Translations under genes and position numbers: made by a program
Shown here: in pieces, positions 9,618 through 63,443 of the stretch
Layout of the letters: every line of letters begins with the position of its first letter
Numbering within the stretch: the first letter of the stretch is position 1
Assembly (NCBI GenBank): GCA_016490735.1
Contig: JAEMWC010000037.1
Location: 1,170,001-1,234,000 of the forward strand
From: Pachyseris speciosa
Lineage: Eukaryota; Cnidaria; Anthozoa; Scleractinia; Pachyseridae
Direction: 5' to 3'
Length of the DNA stretch: 64,000 bases
The notes under the pieces: generated by a model
What the model saw: the letters and a program-made list of their open reading frames with translations, nothing else
Told to the model about the DNA's origin: nothing
Database searches by the model: none

Positions 9618-9632
9618 TAAGGGTTTCAGGAA
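9618..9632. repeat. 15-bp target duplication of the Penelope insertion (left)
   Basis: taagggtttcaggaa here is repeated exactly at 11287-11301, bracketing the inverted Penelope structure. Confidence 0.8.
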
Positions 9633-9670
9633 AATTTGGTTTATCAACGGAGTTGATAGGTTTATCAACG

Positions 9671-9701
<31 letters not shown>

Positions 9702-9705
9702 GGAT

Positions 9706-9753
9706 TCGATTAGCTGACGTTTCGAGCGTTAGCCCTTCGTCGGAGCGAATCGA
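9706..9753 (-). ncRNA. Hammerhead-like motif in the left Penelope arm
   Basis: Inverted copy of the motif at 11123-11168, on the minus strand: ccgacga, a small stem, then gaaac and gtc. The same single change in the ctgacga box is present in both arms. Confidence 0.45.
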
Positions 9754-10144
9754 GGAATTGTGGGTTGTGTATGGTTTATATACAGAAAATGGAGCTACGC
9801 TACGCTACGGTAACATGGTAACGTAAAAAACATGAATAAATTAATTGAATGAAAAGCGCTCGTTGATACCGTGGGGATTAAGAGTGCCAATTTGAAAGAT
9901 CAGTTTTTGCTCGAGATTTTTACGGCTTTCCGTGGTACCTTGATGTAGGGAAAGGCCGGAGATCGACATGTGTTGTTTGGAATGGTTAGGGAGATTAAAA
10001 TGCCGAGCGACAGGTTTGGATGCGTCTTTGTCATCTTTCTCAACATCACGAAGATGTTCTCGGAATCGGTCACCTAGTCGTCTTCCTGTTTCGCCGATGT
10101 ATAACTTTTTGCATCATGTGCAGGTTATGCAAACATATACACAT

Positions 10145-11035
10145 AGTGTGCACTACAAACCCACCGATTCTCACAGTTATTTGTTGTATTCATCTTCACA
10201 TCCATCTCATGTCAAAAACGCCATTCCCTATTCTCAATTTCTTAGACTTCGACGTCTATGTAGTGATGACTCTGATTTTTCCAACAAATCAGAGGAAGTG
10301 TGCCATTTTTTCGAGAAACGTGGCTATCCTGATTCTGTAGTTCAATCGGGCCGTCACCGCGCTCAGCAGATTGATCAACAGTCAGCACTACAGACGTCAC
10401 AAAAGGAAAAGAATGACAGAATTCCATTCACCCTCACATTTCACCCGCATAATAACCCAGTTAAAGCCATCATTCTTAATAACTTTAAGATACTGCAAAA
10501 TGATCCAGAAACTGCTAGAATCTTTTCGGAACCACCGCTGATTTCTTTCAAACGCGACAAAAATGTAGGTAACTTTCTAGTTAAAAGCGCATTCAAAACA
10601 ACTGAACAACCTGGCACTTTTAAATGCGCGCGCTCGCGATGCAAAACTTGTCCTTTCATTCAAAACACTGACAAAATATCGGGCCCTAAGCGATCTGTTA
10701 AGATCACTGATCGTTTCACGTGTACCTCCGCAAATGTTATCTATTGCATAACCTGCACATTATGCAAAAAGTTATACATCGGCGAAACAGGAAGACGACT
10801 AGGTGACCGATTCCGAGAACATCTTCGTGATGTTGAGAAAGATGACAAAGACGCATCCAAACCTGTCGCTCGGCATTTTAATCTCCCTAACCATTCCAAA
10901 AAACACATGTCGATCTCCGGCCTTTCCCTACATCAAGGTACCACGGAAAGCCGTAAAAATCTCGAGCAAAAACTGATCTTTCAAATTGGCACTCTTAATC
11001 CCCACGGTATCAACGAGCGCTTTTCATTCAATTAA
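10145..11035 (+). CDS. Penelope-like element: RT C-terminus and GIY-YIG endonuclease (5'-truncated)
   Basis: About 297 uninterrupted codons of genuine element sequence. The same frame extends back to 9968 through the inverted arm, and that part is artefactual. It includes the RT-end segment (NAIPYSQFLRLRRLC), the linker (NPVKAIILNNFKILQNDP), a cysteine pair region (CARSRCKTCPF) and the endonuclease with Y-C-x2-C (VIYCITCTLCKKLYIGETGR) followed by conserved R and H residues (DRFREHLRD, RHFNLPNH). In autonomous Penelope elements this nuclease nicks the target. The RT palm is missing, so this copy cannot move itself. The open frame suggests a fairly recent insertion. Confidence 0.85.
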   Translation, partial: SVHYKPTDSHSYLLYSSSHPSHVKNAIPYSQFLRLRRLCSDDSDFSNKSEEVCHFFEKRGYPDSVVQSGRHRAQQIDQQSALQTSQKEKNDRIPFTLTFHPHNNPVKAIILNNFKILQNDPETARIFSEPPLISFKRDKNVGNFLVKSAFKTTEQPGTFKCARSRCKTCPFIQNTDKISGPKRSVKITDRFTCTSANVIYCITCTLCKKLYIGETGRRLGDRFREHLRDVEKDDKDASKPVARHFNLPNHSKKHMSISGLSLHQGTTESRKNLEQKLIFQIGTLNPHGINERFSFN

Positions 11036-11122
11036 TTTATTCATGTTTTTCACGTTACCATGTTACCACCAATAGCGTAGCTCCATTTTCTGTATATAAA
11101 CCATACACAACCCACAATTCCT

Positions 11123-11168
11123 CGATTCGCTCCGACGAAGGGCTAACGCTCGAAACGTCAGCTAATCG
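11123..11168 (+). ncRNA. Degenerate hammerhead ribozyme-like motif in Penelope terminus
   Basis: Penelope pLTRs are known to carry small type I hammerheads. Here helix I can form between cgattcgct and agctaatcg (one mismatch). The core reads ccgacga, then a 4-bp stem gggc/gctc with taac loop, then gaaac and gtc. The C in place of the U of CUGA and an unpaired A before helix II suggest weakened or lost activity. Confidence 0.5.
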
Positions 11169-11173
11169 AATCC

Positions 11174-11204
<31 letters not shown>

Positions 11205-11229
11205 CGTTGATAAACCAAATTTTCGTGTT

Positions 11230-13015: not shown

Positions 13016-13967
13016 TCCTCCCTTTGCAGGAAAACCATCAGCCCAAAGCAGCAGGAGCTTTATACAACAACTTCAAAGAATTTCTAATCTTTCAATCTGG
13101 AAAGAAGGAAAGGTACACTTGTAAAGAGGCTGTCAAGAAATTAATTGATGCAGAACGGTGTCACCAAAAAGGTGTACCAAGACGCCATTAGAAGTAAGGA
13201 GGAACTTGTCGTTTCTTGTTGATGCCAGTTCTTTTAAGAACTGGGAGGATTTAAAGTCGGACATGAATGGCACTGAAGTATCCACATATTTTGACACTCC
13301 CAACGTTTTGTTTTGACACTCAATGTGAGTGCCAATGAAAATCATAGTGGAAATCCTCTGTAAAAAGAAACTCCCACTCAAAGATGACGTTGAAGTTCAC
13401 ATCCTTATCAACTCAAAGGAGGACAACTTCGGACTATGCCGCTCTATATTTTGTTGAATGGGAGCGAGTGGAAAGATACAGGGACAAACGTGCTTGCTGC
13501 ACTATCACATATGCAAGGAAGATATTGAAGAAGTTCAGTTTGAGATCGCTCGCCATGGAAACAGAAAGCATGGACGAAAGCCCTTTTACCCATTACAGAA
13601 GAGTAAGATGGAAGTCACGAAAACGGAACAAGCCTCAGCAGTCGCGCGGGTAGCCCACAGAAAGGTTTGTGCAAATGCCGGAGAAATGGTTGCCGCTGAA
13701 CAACCTGGACAACTTCCACGGTCTCGTCAGCAAGTTCATGACCTCAAGCGTAAGACGAGCAAAGGGGACCATGTCGATGATTTATTGTTGTATGTAAAAC
13801 ACAGAGAAGAGCCCGTATTTCTAGAACATCATGACATACCCGTTGATCTATGGGTGTTAGGCAAACCACACACGTGCCATGAAGCTTGAGTTTGTAAGAG
13901 ATGTGTGGGAGGAGGCGGATAAACAGCTACAGAATGAACTTTCCCCAGTTTCCCAGTGGGTACTTGA

Positions 13968-14046
13968 GCCTGAGCATTAGCTATGCCATGCTGATGAGGC
14001 CTAACAAGGCCGAAACAGCTGTCCATGGCTGCTAATGCTTGGGCTC
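13968..14046 (+). ncRNA. Type I hammerhead ribozyme, copy 1
   Basis: Helix I: gccatg (13985-13990) with catggc (14024-14029), extended beyond an internal loop by agcattagc/gctaatgct. Core ctgatga at 13991-13997. Helix II: ggcc/ggcc closed by loop taacaa. Then gaa, helix III acagctgt (an 8-nt palindrome, able to form a 2-bp hairpin or an 8-bp dimer), and cleavage after GTC at 14023. All invariant core bases are present. Confidence 0.9.
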
Positions 14047-14221
14047 AATCTTTGCTTTGTTAGATTTAAGGGGTAATGCCCGCTACCTTGTGGCCTTAGT
14101 GCCTTTTGAGTGGCTTCAGCTTACTTGATCACATTAATTTGTGAAGTATCCTTGTCACTCCAGCCACATCCCACAAGCTTTACGTTTTCATTGCTTGTTT
14201 TATTGATATGTGGGTACTTGA

Positions 14222-14300
14222 GCCTGAGCATTAGCTATGCCATGCTGATGAGGCCTAACAAGGCCGAAACAACTGTCCATGGCTGCTAATGCTTGGGCTC
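14222..14300 (+). ncRNA. Type I hammerhead ribozyme, copy 2
   Basis: Identical core (ctgatga 14245-14251, gaaac 14266-14270, GTC ending 14277) and helices I and II. One change in helix III makes it acaactgt, which keeps the short hairpin but breaks the palindrome that would allow symmetric dimers. Confidence 0.9.
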
Positions 14301-14980
14301 AATCTTTGCTTTGGTAGATTTAAGGGGTAATGCCCGCTACCATGTGGTCTTAGTGCCTTTTGAGTGGCTTCAGCTTACTTGATCACATTAATTTGTGAAG
14401 TATCCTTGTCACTCCAGCCACATCCCACAAGCTTTACGTTATTCTTTAATATCACATCGAGTTCTTGCTGAGATCTCCGCGTCGTTCTCAACCTTTCAAG
14501 AGTGGTCTTGTAGAACCGGAGAAGAACACCGCAGGGAAGAAAAGGGGATCACACAAGAATCCTTGGCGCCCAAGCCGTAGCAGCCCCAGCAACAGCGCAA
14601 TGACTGCACCTATTCAAGGAAGACCTTTTACAGAGGTTTACCACAACAACAACCCATTTGTTGTGTGCTTTCTTGCTGATGAGTCCAGAGCCACCGAATG
14701 CAAGCAGTGCGGTACAGCTTTCCCAAGATGAGTGTTAGTTACGCCATACGATATCGTATTATCGCATGCCGAGAAATGGTTATATCTGATCCCGATCCAA
14801 CATGCGCAAGCAAGAAGTTACCCTCTCCACAGCAGACTACCAAATACTACTGTGTCCGAAAAGACTGTATTCGAAAAGATTCCTGTACGTTACGATGGGA
14901 GAACCTTTGCAAGTTATTGTTTGCCTTTTTTGGGACTTTCAAGACATTGATGGTTGTCAAATTCACTCGTTTTTCTTGAC

Positions 14981-16904: not shown

Positions 16905-16907
16905 TTA

Positions 16908-17210
16908 AGCCGCGGCTACACGAGCGATTTTTTGCTTGCGATGGTGATGCGATTTTTTCAATTTTGTCGCGTCACCAGCGTGCGATGAAAATCGCAAGTG
17001 TAGCCACCCTTGAACGTCGCAAGAAAAAAATCGCGAGAAATTGAATGAGTTTAATTTTTCGCGATTCTTTTTCTGCGATTTTTTGAGCTGTCGCATCACC
17101 TGTGCGAGGGTGGCTACACGGGTGATTTTCACTGCGCGCTGGTGACGCGACAATTTAAAAAAAAATCGCATCACCATCGCAAGCAAAAAATCGCTCGTGT
17201 AGCCGCGGCT
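16908..17210. mobile_element. 303-bp palindromic MITE (TTA target duplication)
   Basis: Long terminal inverted repeats (agccgcggctacacgagcga at left, complement at right) continue inward for about 90 bp. The motif aaaatcgc/gcgatttt recurs throughout. A TTA is repeated on each side (16905-16907, 17211-17213), as made by PIF/Harbinger-type transposases. It lies about 260 bp upstream of the GIPC start codon. Confidence 0.8.
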
Positions 17211-17330
17211 TTACGTAAGACTGCGGTAAAACGGAATATAAGCGCAGGTTAAGAAGTGGAAAAAGATCAAAGAATACTGATCTTGCCTTGTTTCCCGAAC
17301 TCATTTCCGGCTACAGCCAGTGAAAATCAC

Positions 17331-17836: not shown

Positions 17837-20800
17837 GTTAGTCAATTTAAAATAAAACTATCTTAGTTACAGCTTAGCTGAAATCATTAGATTGCTATGG
17901 CTGGTTTGGATAAAACTGAGCGTATACCAGTCTATCGATTTCATTATCTTTTTTTCTGAATTGTTCTTTGTTATTAAAGACTGCATTAAATCTACTCGTA
18001 GCACGATCGCGAGCATTTGAGCATTTGCGCAGTCATACTTCTCTAATTTTGTTAAATCCAAATTTTAGCGTGCTAAGGTGAAAACCGATAACATATTGAT
18101 TAAATGAACGGCTTTAAACGTATATTTTAATACGAAAAACGTCAATGATTCTTTCTAACCCCCGGCTGTGCTCCTCTGTTTACCTCTTAAATTTTGCACA
18201 TTCATGTCCAGTAGTTATTTGGTTATTTTCCAATATAAATAAACAGCAATATAATAAATGAAAATAAGTGCCGTTTTAAGATATTGTTCAGAGAGAGTTG
18301 ACAAAACAAGGCCCATCTTGATGACCTTTTTACTCTTTTTTTTTTATTATTGACCCTGTATTAATATTTAAAAATAATGTAAGCTTATATATAGAACATG
18401 ATAGAACATACAGTGTAAGCTTACAAAATTGCTGATAATTATTTGATTATTATTTCTGAAATGTAATAAAATCAATTAACTAAAATGGATCACAAGAATT
18501 CTCTTACATTTTATTCTGAGGCAAAGCTAGGGATTGCTCTTGTGCTGACTTTAACATCTGCCATTTTAGTGCCCCAATGAGGGATGCCAACACAGTGTGC
18601 TGATACTAAATTCTGCAATTTTCTAAAAATTATTTTCACAATAATTATAGAACCTGCAATTATTGTTAAATTAGTTGTTTCATAATTTTTGGCTAGTGAT
18701 CAATTTGTTTGTTTCCGAGTGTTCTTCATACATAAAACTTCCTGTATCATGTTGATGAAAACTAAGAATAGCTTAACCCATTGGCACCTGTGCCGGCCAA
18801 AACCGGCCGTAAAAAACTCCCATGCTTCAAAACATTGCAACTTTCTCAATCGCACGAATATTGCCTTAACTGTTAGTTGTGAGCACGAAATGGAATGCCC
18901 TTTAAATTTGGATATCCAATAAATGCAAGAAACGTAGCGATTCTTACCAAATATGGCCTTTTGAGTTTGGACAAGAACGAAACTGGCCGTTTTTAACGTC
19001 AAAGAGAAACAACAAAAATGCCCCTTTTTGCCTTCATGTTTTTTAGGGAAATCATCGTCCAAAAACCAAAATTCAACCATCATAACAAAATTCAGTCCTT
19101 TTTCTAGCTTAGAAATGACTTTTTTTGATCATATTCTTCTCCCGAGCGTAGATACAGCCTTTTGTTCCAGTGCATTCGGGCCTTCCCGACATTTTCAACA
19201 TCTTGAGCGCATTGCATGCTAGGAACTAACGAGAACTTTTGACAGCGCCCGTTCCTTCCCCCAATTCTTTCACATATAAACTAAGTCTACAGCCACTCCG
19301 ACCTACCGCCAAAATTTCCTGCTCGTGGTCATCTTCAGTACACAGAAATTCCAAAATATGTGGCGGTAGGTCGAGAAATTCATCAATAGTCGAGTCCCAA
19401 AGGTACTAAGTGTTCGACCGGCCAAATTCCCAGTTCGTCGAGGAACAATCCAAATTCAACAACAAAGTACATCACCTTGCTCGATTCTTTGAGAAAGTGG
19501 ACTCTTAGCTACCGTCACGCTTAATGATGCTCATCAGGCAGCCGCTAAAGATGAAAAATGGCTGTAAATTTAGCAGAAATCGCAAGCAAACCGAACTTGG
19601 GCCATTGTTGTCGCTTCACGGATAAAAAATAGCTACGTCAAAATGACCTTTTCAGAAACCTTGAGCCTCCAGTGTCTTAGGACAGCACCACTTTTCCCTG
19701 GTAGTTCAAATAAAGAGTCACGAATTGCTATTCATCGTTTATAGGTGGAAAATCACTCCGAAAATGTAAAAACCTGCGGTAGTCAATGGGTTAACAAAGA
19801 AAAATAGAGGTCACGTGACCGGTCCTTTTAACACTATCCAGTGAAAGTCATGGTTGGTGGTAGTTTAAATCCAGGGTCAGAGTTAAGATTCTACAGTTAA
19901 AACAGTTTCTAGGGGGGTGGGTAACTTAGCAGGGCCAGGCTTCATTTCACGTTACCTCCTGGGTTTGTAGTTGGCTAGGTCACGTGACAAGCCACAGTAT
20001 CAAACTCAATTACCCTAGATGAGATGATCATCGACTTCTGACTGTCACTAGTGGCTCCAACTCGACCTCCATTGGCTAGTTTTTAAAATCACCACCCCCT
20101 CAAGTTGGCTTTCATGCAACTTTAACCTTGAAGCTAAATGCTGGCCAGAAAGTGGTACCCTCCCCCCAGATCTTGCAGCATATGGTTGTTTTCAAATAAA
20201 ATAGCGTTGATATGTTACTAGCCTCAAAGGCTTTTGTTTAAGTGGGTGAGCAAAACAAAATATCAACATCAAAAAAAAATTATGTTTTATTTAACCCATT
20301 GGCACCCGTGCCGGCCAAAACCGGCCGTAAAAAACTCCCATGCTTCAAAACATTGCAACTTTCTCAATCGCACGAATATTGCCTTAACTGTTAGTTGTGA
20401 GCACGAAATGGAATGCCCTTTAAATTTGGATATCCAATAAATGCAAGAAACGTAGCGATTCTTACCAAATATGGCCTTTTGAGTTTGGACAAGAACGAAA
20501 CTGGCCGTTTTTAACGTCAAAGAGAAACAACAAAAATGCCCCTTCATGTTCTTCATGTTTTTTAGGGAAATCATCGTCCAAAAACCAAAATTCAACCATC
20601 ATAACAAAATTCAGTCCTTTTTCTAGCTTAGAAATGACTTTTTTTGTTCATATTCTTCTCCCGAGCGTAGATACAGCCTTTTGTTCCAGTGCATTCGGGC
20701 CTTCCCGACATTTTCAACATCTTGAGCGCATTGCATGCTGGGAACTAACGAGAATTTTTGACAGCACCCGTTCCTTCCCCAATTCTTTCACATATAAACT

Positions 20801-23800
20801 AAGTCTACAGCCACTCCGACCTACCGCCAAAATTTCCTGCTCGTGGTCATCTTCAGTACACAGAAATTCCAAAATATGTGGCGGTAGGTCGAGAAATTCA
20901 TCAATAGTCGAGTCCCAAAGGTACTAAGTGTTCGACCGGCCAAATTCCCAGTTCGTCGAGTAACAAGCCAAATTCAACAACAAAGTACATCACCTTGCTT
21001 GATTCTTTGAGAAAGTGGACTCTTAGCTACTGTCACGCTTAATGATGCTCATCAGGCAGCCGCTAAAGATGAAAAATGGCTGTAAATTTAGCAGAAATCG
21101 CAAGCAAACCGAACTTGGGCCATTGTTGTCGCTTCATGGATAAAAAATAGCTACGTCAAAATGACCTTTTCAGAAACCTTGAGCCTCCAGTGCCTTAGGA
21201 CAGCACCACTTTTCCCTGGTAGTTCAAATAAAGAGTCACGAATTGCTATTCATCGTTTATAGGTGGAAAATCACTCCGAAAATGTAAAAACCTGCGGTAG
21301 TCAATGGGTTAAATTAATAGGAATGACTGATCTTATGAGGATTAAATTTCAACAGGCAACCAATATGTTTTACCAGAGAAAATGTTGCCATTCTGCCCAC
21401 AGTTAATCGTTTTTGTAATAGCCTGTCTGTGACATCCAATAAGGGTAACTTTTCTTTTTTGCCAAGACCAACTTCTCCAAAGGAAGTTTTTCACTTATTT
21501 ACAAGCTTTTTTAACTTGGAAAAATCAAAATGGGCATGCCATTATTACTCAGGATACTGTAAGTATACCGAGTTATAAAATGTGTCAGATTTCAGTCTTT
21601 TTTTTTTTTTTTTTGTGCAGCAAAATGCACAATACAATTACGTTCCGGTGTTTGAATTGGCCAATGCACAATAGCAGGCACGTGGCGGTGTGTTCATTGG
21701 TTAAAGCAAACCACATAGTCCAAAGGTCGAAAGGCTAACATCACGCGACGGTTGTTTACAAGTTATGCAAATTCATCGTGTTTGAGTTGTGAAGCTAGAT
21801 ATTTTAAGACAGCACAGTCTGTCCCCGTGAAAAGGTTTGCCGAGTGTTAAGAAAAAGTTGGAAGCCTCGCACGTGTAGTGCTTATAGGCTAATCGATATC
21901 ACAAGTCGAATTCGACTGTGACAGAAAAATTACAGATTTGCGCAAAGTTTTCGTAATATGATACCTTCCATTTAATACGTGACCGCAAGTGAACACTCAA
22001 GGTTAAATAATCCACTTCGACCGCCGGACCAAATTTTCCTGCACATATCTTTGTAAAGTTGTTAACCTAGATTTTAATACAGTACAGACTGTCTGTGTGA
22101 AAAGGTTTGCCGAATTTAAGACAAGGTTGGAAGCCTCGCACGTGCTGTGAGAGAACGTTGTGACAGTTCTATATTTAGAAAATCGCAAAGTTGTTTTGAT
22201 GTAATTTGATCCAGTTTATACCACAACTCAATCGCTGTGACAGTTCTATATTTAGAGACAAGTTTGCGAATTTTTGGTTTTCACGTGATGTCAGAAAAAA
22301 AACTAAAATTAAACATTTATATTTTTTACCTTCATCAGGTAAATGACATTTTAAGCCAAGTAACAGCTTTGTTTTGAAAATAGAGTGGTTTGAATTTCGA
22401 GTTCTTTTTACAATGCGTGACATCTGGATTGCTTCTGAGAAACACGTACACGGAAACGATTCGCCTTGTGTTTTCGAGTTTTGAATATCCAATATGTTAA
22501 GAGAGAAGTGTCTATGCGATTGTTTTCAAGCTTCGCAGAGAGAAAAAACTCCAGATGTTGCCACTTAATTTAGAAGTAAACAACAACAGCTGCCAACGAA
22601 TATGGATGACAACTCTCAAAACAGTTTAACGAGCTTTGCTCGTACGTGAACAAAAATGCCTTATGTGAACCCAAAAGCAAATCACTAGCCGGATAGTTTC
22701 GAGAATCAGAAAGCGTGCGTCCGGCTTCTGCAGCACAAAAGTATCCCGAGTTAACGCTCATAGAGCGTCTTGTTAATAATTGAGTTGTAGGTGTGAATCA
22801 GATTTCACTCCTTTGCTCAATCCTTCTCTTCATCTCTCCTTTGATTTGTGTTGAATTGTACATCCACTAACCATGCATAATGCTTGGCATTTATTTTGCA
22901 GATAGTTGTAAATTATAAGCTAAAATTCCTGTACATTAACCAAAATTACGATCATGAAAATGGGTAAATGAAAAAACAAACCTCGTCAAGATACTACAAA
23001 AGACTAATGAAAGATATAGAGAAGAGGAGTTGCAGTTGTACTTGCTTTTCATATTTTGTCTGAAACAAAGGAAACAGAAGAGAAGATGGCTGTCACACTT
23101 ACAATGTACATTTGACTCTACAAAGACTTAATCATGCGTAAAATGTAATGCAAGTGTCTTGCTTCTGTTATGGAGCTTCCAGTGACGTTTCCTAACAAAG
23201 GAATCAAAACCACATATTGTAACCGCAAGTGGTTTATAATTCATTTTCTGCGTTCAGTACATGGCTCATAACCACTTTGATTTATTTCATAAATATAGAT
23301 GAACTATATAGTTGCAGCTGTACATATTTAACATGTAAAAATAACACAACTATTGATTCTACAAATCTTTTTAAAAAGGTTGTTATTGTTCATTGCAGTT
23401 ATACATGTAGGTACAGTACCTTAATAAAGTAATTGTGTTAATTAATGTTGGCATCAAAATCAAAATGCAGCCACCAATCACAATGAAACATGACTCCATA
23501 ACAGTGTCCACTACCAGACAACTTGGTTGACCAGCCATGTATCACTATCTTTCAAAGAGTTTTTCCTTGGTTGGATTTTTAGTAGGAAAATTTTGTGAAG
23601 AGATTTTTTGATTGTAACCAATGTAAGTTGTTTTCATTCATTTTAATCACATCTGTTTGCCAAAATTCCAGCACAAGATTGTTGATTGTTGATTTTTTTA
23701 TTGACTTGCTATTAAATAAATACAAAATTACCTGACCCGTAGGTAGCATAGCTAATCTAGGCAGGCCAGGAGATAAGGAAAGATGGGAGTACATGTATAT

Positions 23801-57112: not shown

Positions 57113-63443
<6,331 letters not shown>

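Follow-up and report, generated by a model that had tools for sequence, protein, structure and literature searches.

Sequence features support reading positions 13956-14440 of the Pachyseris speciosa window (the whole 64-kb stretch of DNA analysed here, G000:C37:1170001-1234000, from an assembly of 983.7 Mb in 2368 contigs) as an inserted copy of a metazoan non-LTR retrozyme, a kind of element already known from corals. The retrozyme identity proposed in the original prediction is upheld by features that could be tested on the sequence: type I hammerheads in tandem, a unit of 254 nt, a GC content of 0.46, the lack of any ORF of 120 aa or more and the presence of dispersed tandem copies. What is new with respect to the published coral retrozymes is the mode of insertion of the copies. 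We lean towards a reading in which copies of the family are inserted by target priming from one or the other of two internal sites of the retrozyme RNA, the second target strand seemingly being extended too in part of them, with a Penelope-like element as the source of the enzyme.

The array and its hammerhead ribozymes

The features of the array are the following.

13956..14440, forward strand: retrozyme array, 1.91 copies of a 254-nt unit (Tandem Repeats Finder, period 254, 1.9 copies)
13985..14029, forward strand: hammerhead 1, type I, predicted cleavage after 14023 (Rfam RF00163 and descriptor)
14239..14283, forward strand: hammerhead 2, type I, predicted cleavage after 14277 (RF02275 match at 14224-14302 and descriptor)
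13964..13981, forward strand: outer helix I, 5' arm (TTGAGCC, GCATTAGC), by reading and folded, partner 14031-14048
14031..14048, forward strand: outer helix I, 3' arm (GCTAATGC, GGCTCAA), by reading and folded, partner 13964-13981
14024..14277, forward strand: 254-nt RNA expected from double cleavage (hammerhead positions; fold z -5.0)

The locus had been described as a two-unit repeat at 13957..14441. The two ribozymes and the period of 254 nt stand, the array comprises 1.91 units only, and its coordinates were shifted by one. Positions within the unit are numbered here from u1 = 13956. The two copies have 231 nt in common, with four differences (14018/14272, in the helix III loop, 14060/14314, 14088/14342 and 14094/14348). 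A special linker role for the 23 nt that separate the copies was considered and rejected, because any array of 1.91 units has a part present once that mimics a linker. No ORF of 120 aa or more was found over 13956-14440, so no reverse transcriptase or GIY-YIG endonuclease is encoded there.

Both hammerheads carry the complete set of invariant core letters and lie 254 nt apart, as had been claimed, in agreement with Rfam, the strict descriptor and the sequence itself; the claimed 6-bp helix I is likewise present in both, and their assignment to type I follows from Rfam as well as from strand order. The Rfam scores are 33.9 bits for 13985-14029 (Hammerhead_1, E 0.00012), just under the curated cut-off of 34, and 32.8 bits for 14224-14302 (Hammerhead_HH9, E 0.00022), well under the cut-off of 52. 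The strict descriptor matched at these two places only in the 64-kb window, and 3 of 200 shuffled windows gave one hit each. A relaxed descriptor, which overlooks a degenerate motif in a Penelope-like fragment (spotted by eye and then by pattern, see below), again returned just the two of the array. The exact 26-base core was found in 0 contigs of IMG/VR. Helix II, given as 4 bp in the original prediction, can indeed form 4 bp, and an alternative of 5 bp with a smaller loop is also available. Helix I is longer than had been noted, since beyond a UAU/U internal loop 8 and then 7 further base pairs could be read. Conservation of this structure in the family at large was apparent in 55 distinct cores, picked on the catalytic letters alone, in which the helix I and II cells were paired in 92.9% of cases vs 84.7% after shuffling (maximum 86.9%), with changes on both sides in 6 of the 10 helix I/II pairs.

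A transcript of the array could release the RNA 14024-14277, whose proposed coordinates match the two predicted cleavage positions; the sequence leads us to expect self-cleavage and a circular RNA. The fold of the 254-nt monomer has a z of -5.0 against 200 shuffles and its reverse complement scores alike (-5.2), so fold energy gives no strand call and the strand is indicated by the hammerheads instead. As for helix III, it had been remarked that copy 1 is palindromic and copy 2 is not. This is correct for the sequences (ACAGCUGU in copy 1, ACAACUGU in copy 2), with self-duplex energies of -11.1 and -1.0 kcal/mol, respectively. The palindrome, however, is the norm of the family (93 of 103 cores of the retrieved genome stretches, a set that had been filtered for pairing) and the copy 2 form, ACAACTGT, is the exception, appearing in 1 of the 103, namely window copy 2. 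The palindromic helix III can pair across two ribozymes or form a 2-bp hairpin. The palindrome alone is no proof of dimeric cleavage, because a 2-bp stem capped by a tetraloop is likewise available to each of the two forms. Cleavage of monomers is described as efficient in most of the invertebrate hammerheads assayed (PMC7229834).

Copies in the genome

The repeat is not single-copy. A search of the same genome with the unit as query gave at least 92 matches (40 of 79 candidates scored), and a query rotated by half a unit gave at least 118 (40 of 187 scored). A genome-wide Rfam hammerhead search, in which 74 of 127828 candidates were scored, yielded at least 66 matches, 63 of them over the cut-off, and sampled mainly another hammerhead family. 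L-numbers (L001 etc.) designate the genome stretches retrieved around matches.

The sister arrays measure from less than one to 6 units in the retrieved stretches, some being cut by the stretch edge. One of them (L032) comprises 4.2 units, which measure 265-271 nt and show T runs at the positions of the TTTT in the window. Another, L055 303-1826, is a three-unit higher-order repeat in which units 2 and 5 are identical and units 1 and 4 are 99.2% alike, and at C59:528117-529892 of the same assembly (G000) the matches return every 762 nt. Such a three-unit order could derive from a circular trimer template or from crossing over.

Ends of the copies

The places at which the sister copies end define three further features of the unit.

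14108..14160 (second copy 14362-14414), forward strand: stem-loop u153-205 carrying start site 1 (fold; sister-copy ends)
14149..14159 (second copy 14403-14413), forward strand: site 1, u194-204, frequent 3' end of sister copies
14180..14208, forward strand: site 2, u225-253, U-rich, 3' end of other sister copies

Ends were read in the sense orientation. In the first sample, made of 29 independent copies, every 3' end fell either in u194-204 (10) or in u225-253 (19), with a mean resultant length of 0.87; the windows were set after viewing this sample, whose u1-u254 query favours ends near u254. The 5' ends were scattered (mean resultant length 0.13). Left out of the 29 were L068 and L074, which by their flanks are the same insertions as L064 and L069, the copies cut by the stretch edge (L066, L072, L073 and L084), and the L031 piece, which stops near u70 at a junction with the other hammerhead family. 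L063 was scored at u249, its flanks pointing to about u241, and for L055 the position of the end is uncertain. Of five copies met by chance in stretches retrieved for other hammerheads, four ended within the windows, at u198, u245, u236 and u239, the fifth being L031 near u70.

The sample obtained with the rotated query, for which the windows were preset, had 13 of 16 ends within them (P about 1e-8 under uniformity). It derives from 20 short 3' flanks, 4 of them with no visible end, and the ends are u199, 195, 207, 203, 200, 199, 234, 195, 196, 195, 195, 194, 158, 234, 196 and 126, so that the three misses are u126, u158 and u207. Site 1 accounts for 11 of the 16 ends here and for 10 of the 29 in the first sample; the choice of query pulls the proportions of the sites, since site 1 prevails in the rotated sample and site 2 in the first. 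The 3' end of the window copy, u231 (14440), lies inside site 2.

In the predicted fold, site 1 runs from the first unpaired base after the stem-loop onward and site 2 corresponds to a U-rich loop and bulge. The 3' ends are richer in unpaired probability than random positions (P 0.004). Within the stem-loop, 72 of 87 distinct rows have U-A at u170-u190 and 8 have C-G. The fold as a whole shows modest covariation, with 20 both-side cells against a shuffle mean of 5 (maximum 11), and the number of pairs with both-side changes, 8, is inside the shuffle range (mean 4, maximum 9).

Target-site duplications and inverted pieces

Exact target-site duplications of 11-16 bp were found near both ends in 9 of 25 loci, a few with filler bases, and in a control with swapped flanks 0 of 600 pairs reached 9 bp. 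The exact-match test detected none in the other 16 loci. Thirteen of the 29 copies with a visible 5' side have an inverted piece there; that of L065 is 48 nt away and that of L059 folds back at u238. The outer ends of the inversions (u176, 245, 163, 197, 43, 243, 241, 176, 238 and 197) fall within the two start-site windows in 6 of 10 cases (P 0.002), or in 6 of 11 (P 0.003) if L032 is counted, which was omitted from the ten and whose outer piece stops at u144, a miss. In 6 of the 9 loci with duplications (L059, L065, L071, L078, L079 and L080) the duplication encloses the inverted and the direct piece together. The 3' junctions of L059 and L062 have five bases in common with the target. At the ends of the window copy neither a target-site duplication nor an inverted piece was found. 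In the open-licence literature searched, as far as its text could be consulted, we came across no earlier account of fixed start sites or of inversions for retrozymes.

A second hammerhead family and other features of the window

The other family (L001-L030, L037-L054) has a unit near 508 nt and is represented in the retrieved stretches mostly by partial copies, some with inverted pieces. Its 3' ends cluster as well, 28 of 37 being at r424-447, 7 at r510-528 and 2 elsewhere, in windows set after looking and with duplicates and the internally deleted L014 and L024 left out. Its duplications are weak (10 bp or more in 5 of 34 vs 3 of 1122 swapped pairs). Outside the ribozyme, the best match between the families falls at a start site of each (58 of 1000 shuffles are as high). 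At L010 1199-1817, and also in L008 and L011, a copy of this second family is joined to u224-70 of the window family. The window-family piece in L010 stops about at the hammerhead cleavage site, and a junction of this type perhaps reflects a template switch from linear cleaved RNA.

Several further features were seen in the window. Positions 352-1123 hold 3.1 tandem copies of a 249-bp unit with one tRNA gene each, two being tRNA-Thr (GGT) and the third having an extra anticodon-loop base; Rfam found no hammerhead in this repeat. There is a direct repeat of about 1 kb (18773-19794 and 20291-21312, 98.4% identical and about 1.5 kb apart), and the perfect 52-bp inverted repeats at 16907-17211, with 201 nt between them, resemble a small inverted-repeat transposon. 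Two collagen ORFs with proline runs (35133-35513 and 42649-43044), 78% alike in DNA, are presumably akin to cnidarian minicollagens. A sulfite oxidase ORF has its closest named match in Porites lobata (85%), unnamed proteins reaching up to 92%, and probably points to a stony coral as host.

A proposed route of insertion and its helper

The fixed 3' ends, the ragged 5' ends, the duplications and the inversions enclosed within one duplication point to target-primed reverse transcription of retrozyme RNA. The inserted template was probably circular, which is plausible because several units occur within one insertion. In the route that we propose, transcripts of the array or of its sister arrays would cut themselves at the hammerheads into a 254-nt RNA, which a ligase would close into a circle, going by published work on other animals. 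A target-primed reverse transcriptase would start at u194-204, the foot of the stem-loop, or at the U-rich u225-253, a step that the footprints support, and might circle the RNA more than once, leaving tandem copies whose 3' end is fixed and whose 5' end is ragged, in some cases with a duplication. The second target strand was seemingly extended on the RNA as well, often from the same sites, which would give the 5' inverted piece (13/29). Going by likeness, the reverse transcriptase would come from a Penelope-like element.

A fragment of such an element lies upstream of the array. It is outside the retrozyme and is given as context for the choice of helper.

9627..11227, forward strand: Penelope-like fragment, with a GIY-YIG ORF (9944-11035) between nearly perfect inverted arms that have a common outer end
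11132-11159 (forward strand) and 9716-9743 (reverse strand): hammerhead-like motif in both arms (by eye, then pattern)

The motif, which Rfam does not list, may in our reading be a degenerate minimal hammerhead. It recurs in L007 and L045.

On our analysis the enzyme that inserts the retrozyme RNA is most likely Penelope-like, because a pair of sites separated by about 40 nt, apparently often used for the second strand too, matches the behaviour measured for a Penelope-like enzyme. In the assays described in PMC11167929, a purified Penelope-like (Poseidon) enzyme initiates at two neighbouring internal positions and carries out extension on both strands of the target, and these two positions account for the 30-40 bp "tail". 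The Penelope-like start is described there as taking place without homology to the target, unlike some retrozyme 3' junctions, which have up to 5 bases in common with it. The stretch common to the retrozyme and the 3' end of the window's Penelope-like fragment is not significant (141 of 1000 shuffles as high). The enzyme that spreads animal retrozymes had been left open, and Penelope-like elements had been put forward, by circumstantial evidence, as a strong candidate for moving them (PMC7229834).

LINE enzymes are a serious rival for the role of helper. Duplications and inversions occur with LINEs too. A LINE enzyme would let accessible sites of the RNA anneal to the cut target, the inversions being twin priming, and the 11-16 bp duplications are indeed LINE-sized, the 3' ends are enriched in unpaired bases, some junctions have up to 5 bases in common with the target, and LINE-type reverse transcriptases are present in the window (40466-41467 and 59363-61195). 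Hammerhead repeats of Nematostella with 15-bp duplications have also been likened to LINEs, in the passage available to us (PMC4918200). A spacing of about 40 nt between the start sites, and inverted pieces whose outer ends often lie at these sites and which repeat the RNA region of the direct piece, nevertheless fit the Penelope-like assay better, and we regard a LINE helper as the less likely of the two.

Two further explanations appear very improbable. Linear RNA polymerase III transcripts that end at TTTT and, in the manner of SINEs, serve as templates from their 3' ends, with no role for a circle, would suit the two TTTT runs within site 2 (u230-233 and u243-246), yet site 1 has no TTTT and receives 10/29 and 11/16 of the ends, and the multi-unit arrays would require read-through. 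A tandem satellite multiplied through crossing over and DNA duplication, its hammerheads being inert relics, would account for a window copy with no duplication and for the three-unit order of L055, a possible product of crossing over, and is hard to reconcile with short dispersed arrays, duplications, fixed 3' ends and the preserved helix I and II pairing.

The Penelope-like reading can be extended, with about even chances in our estimation, to coral retrozymes as passengers of Penelope-like elements: a ribozyme-made circle with two fixed loading sites (stem-loop foot and U-rich loop), on which the enzyme starts from both ends of the cut target, would give rise to arrays and flipped pieces in one step, and in the family of about 508 nt a U-rich site of the same sort would be used. 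The fixed start sites and the common outer ends of the inversions are a footprint for this proposal whose frequency can be assessed in any coral genome and, if it is true, two poorly understood users of hammerheads would be united in a single life cycle.

Comparison with known systems

Among the marks of metazoan non-LTR retrozymes, the array displays a GC content under 50% and a unit within about 170-400 nt, the published size range of animal retrozyme RNAs, as well as a full type I hammerhead with an extended helix I, with Rfam scores below the curated cut-offs; long target-site duplications are found in the sister loci and are absent at the window copy. The unit of the second family, near 508 nt, exceeds that range.

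Coral retrozymes, their circles and their self-cleavage are already published (PMC7229834). Like those described there for Acropora millepora, the window retrozyme has type I hammerheads, short tandem repeats, low GC and no LTR seen, and its unit of 254 nt (265-271 in array L032) is close to their 220-245 bp; the difference is that circle and cleavage were demonstrated there, whereas for the present element they are predicted from its sequence. With plant LTR retrozymes, as characterised in PMC4918200, it has in common a non-autonomous nature and an RNA-releasing hammerhead dimer. The plant elements, in contrast, have type III hammerheads, 600-800 nt, LTRs and 4-bp duplications (PMC4918200), while the window array is of type I and a tandem repeat was all that was seen there. 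Finally, the two adjacent internal start sites, the seeming second-strand extension, the tandem or partial-tandem copies and the hammerhead itself recall Penelope-like elements as portrayed in PMC11167929, which differ in encoding a reverse transcriptase and a GIY-YIG endonuclease and in having minimal hammerheads, whereas the retrozyme encodes nothing and carries full ones (PMC11167929).
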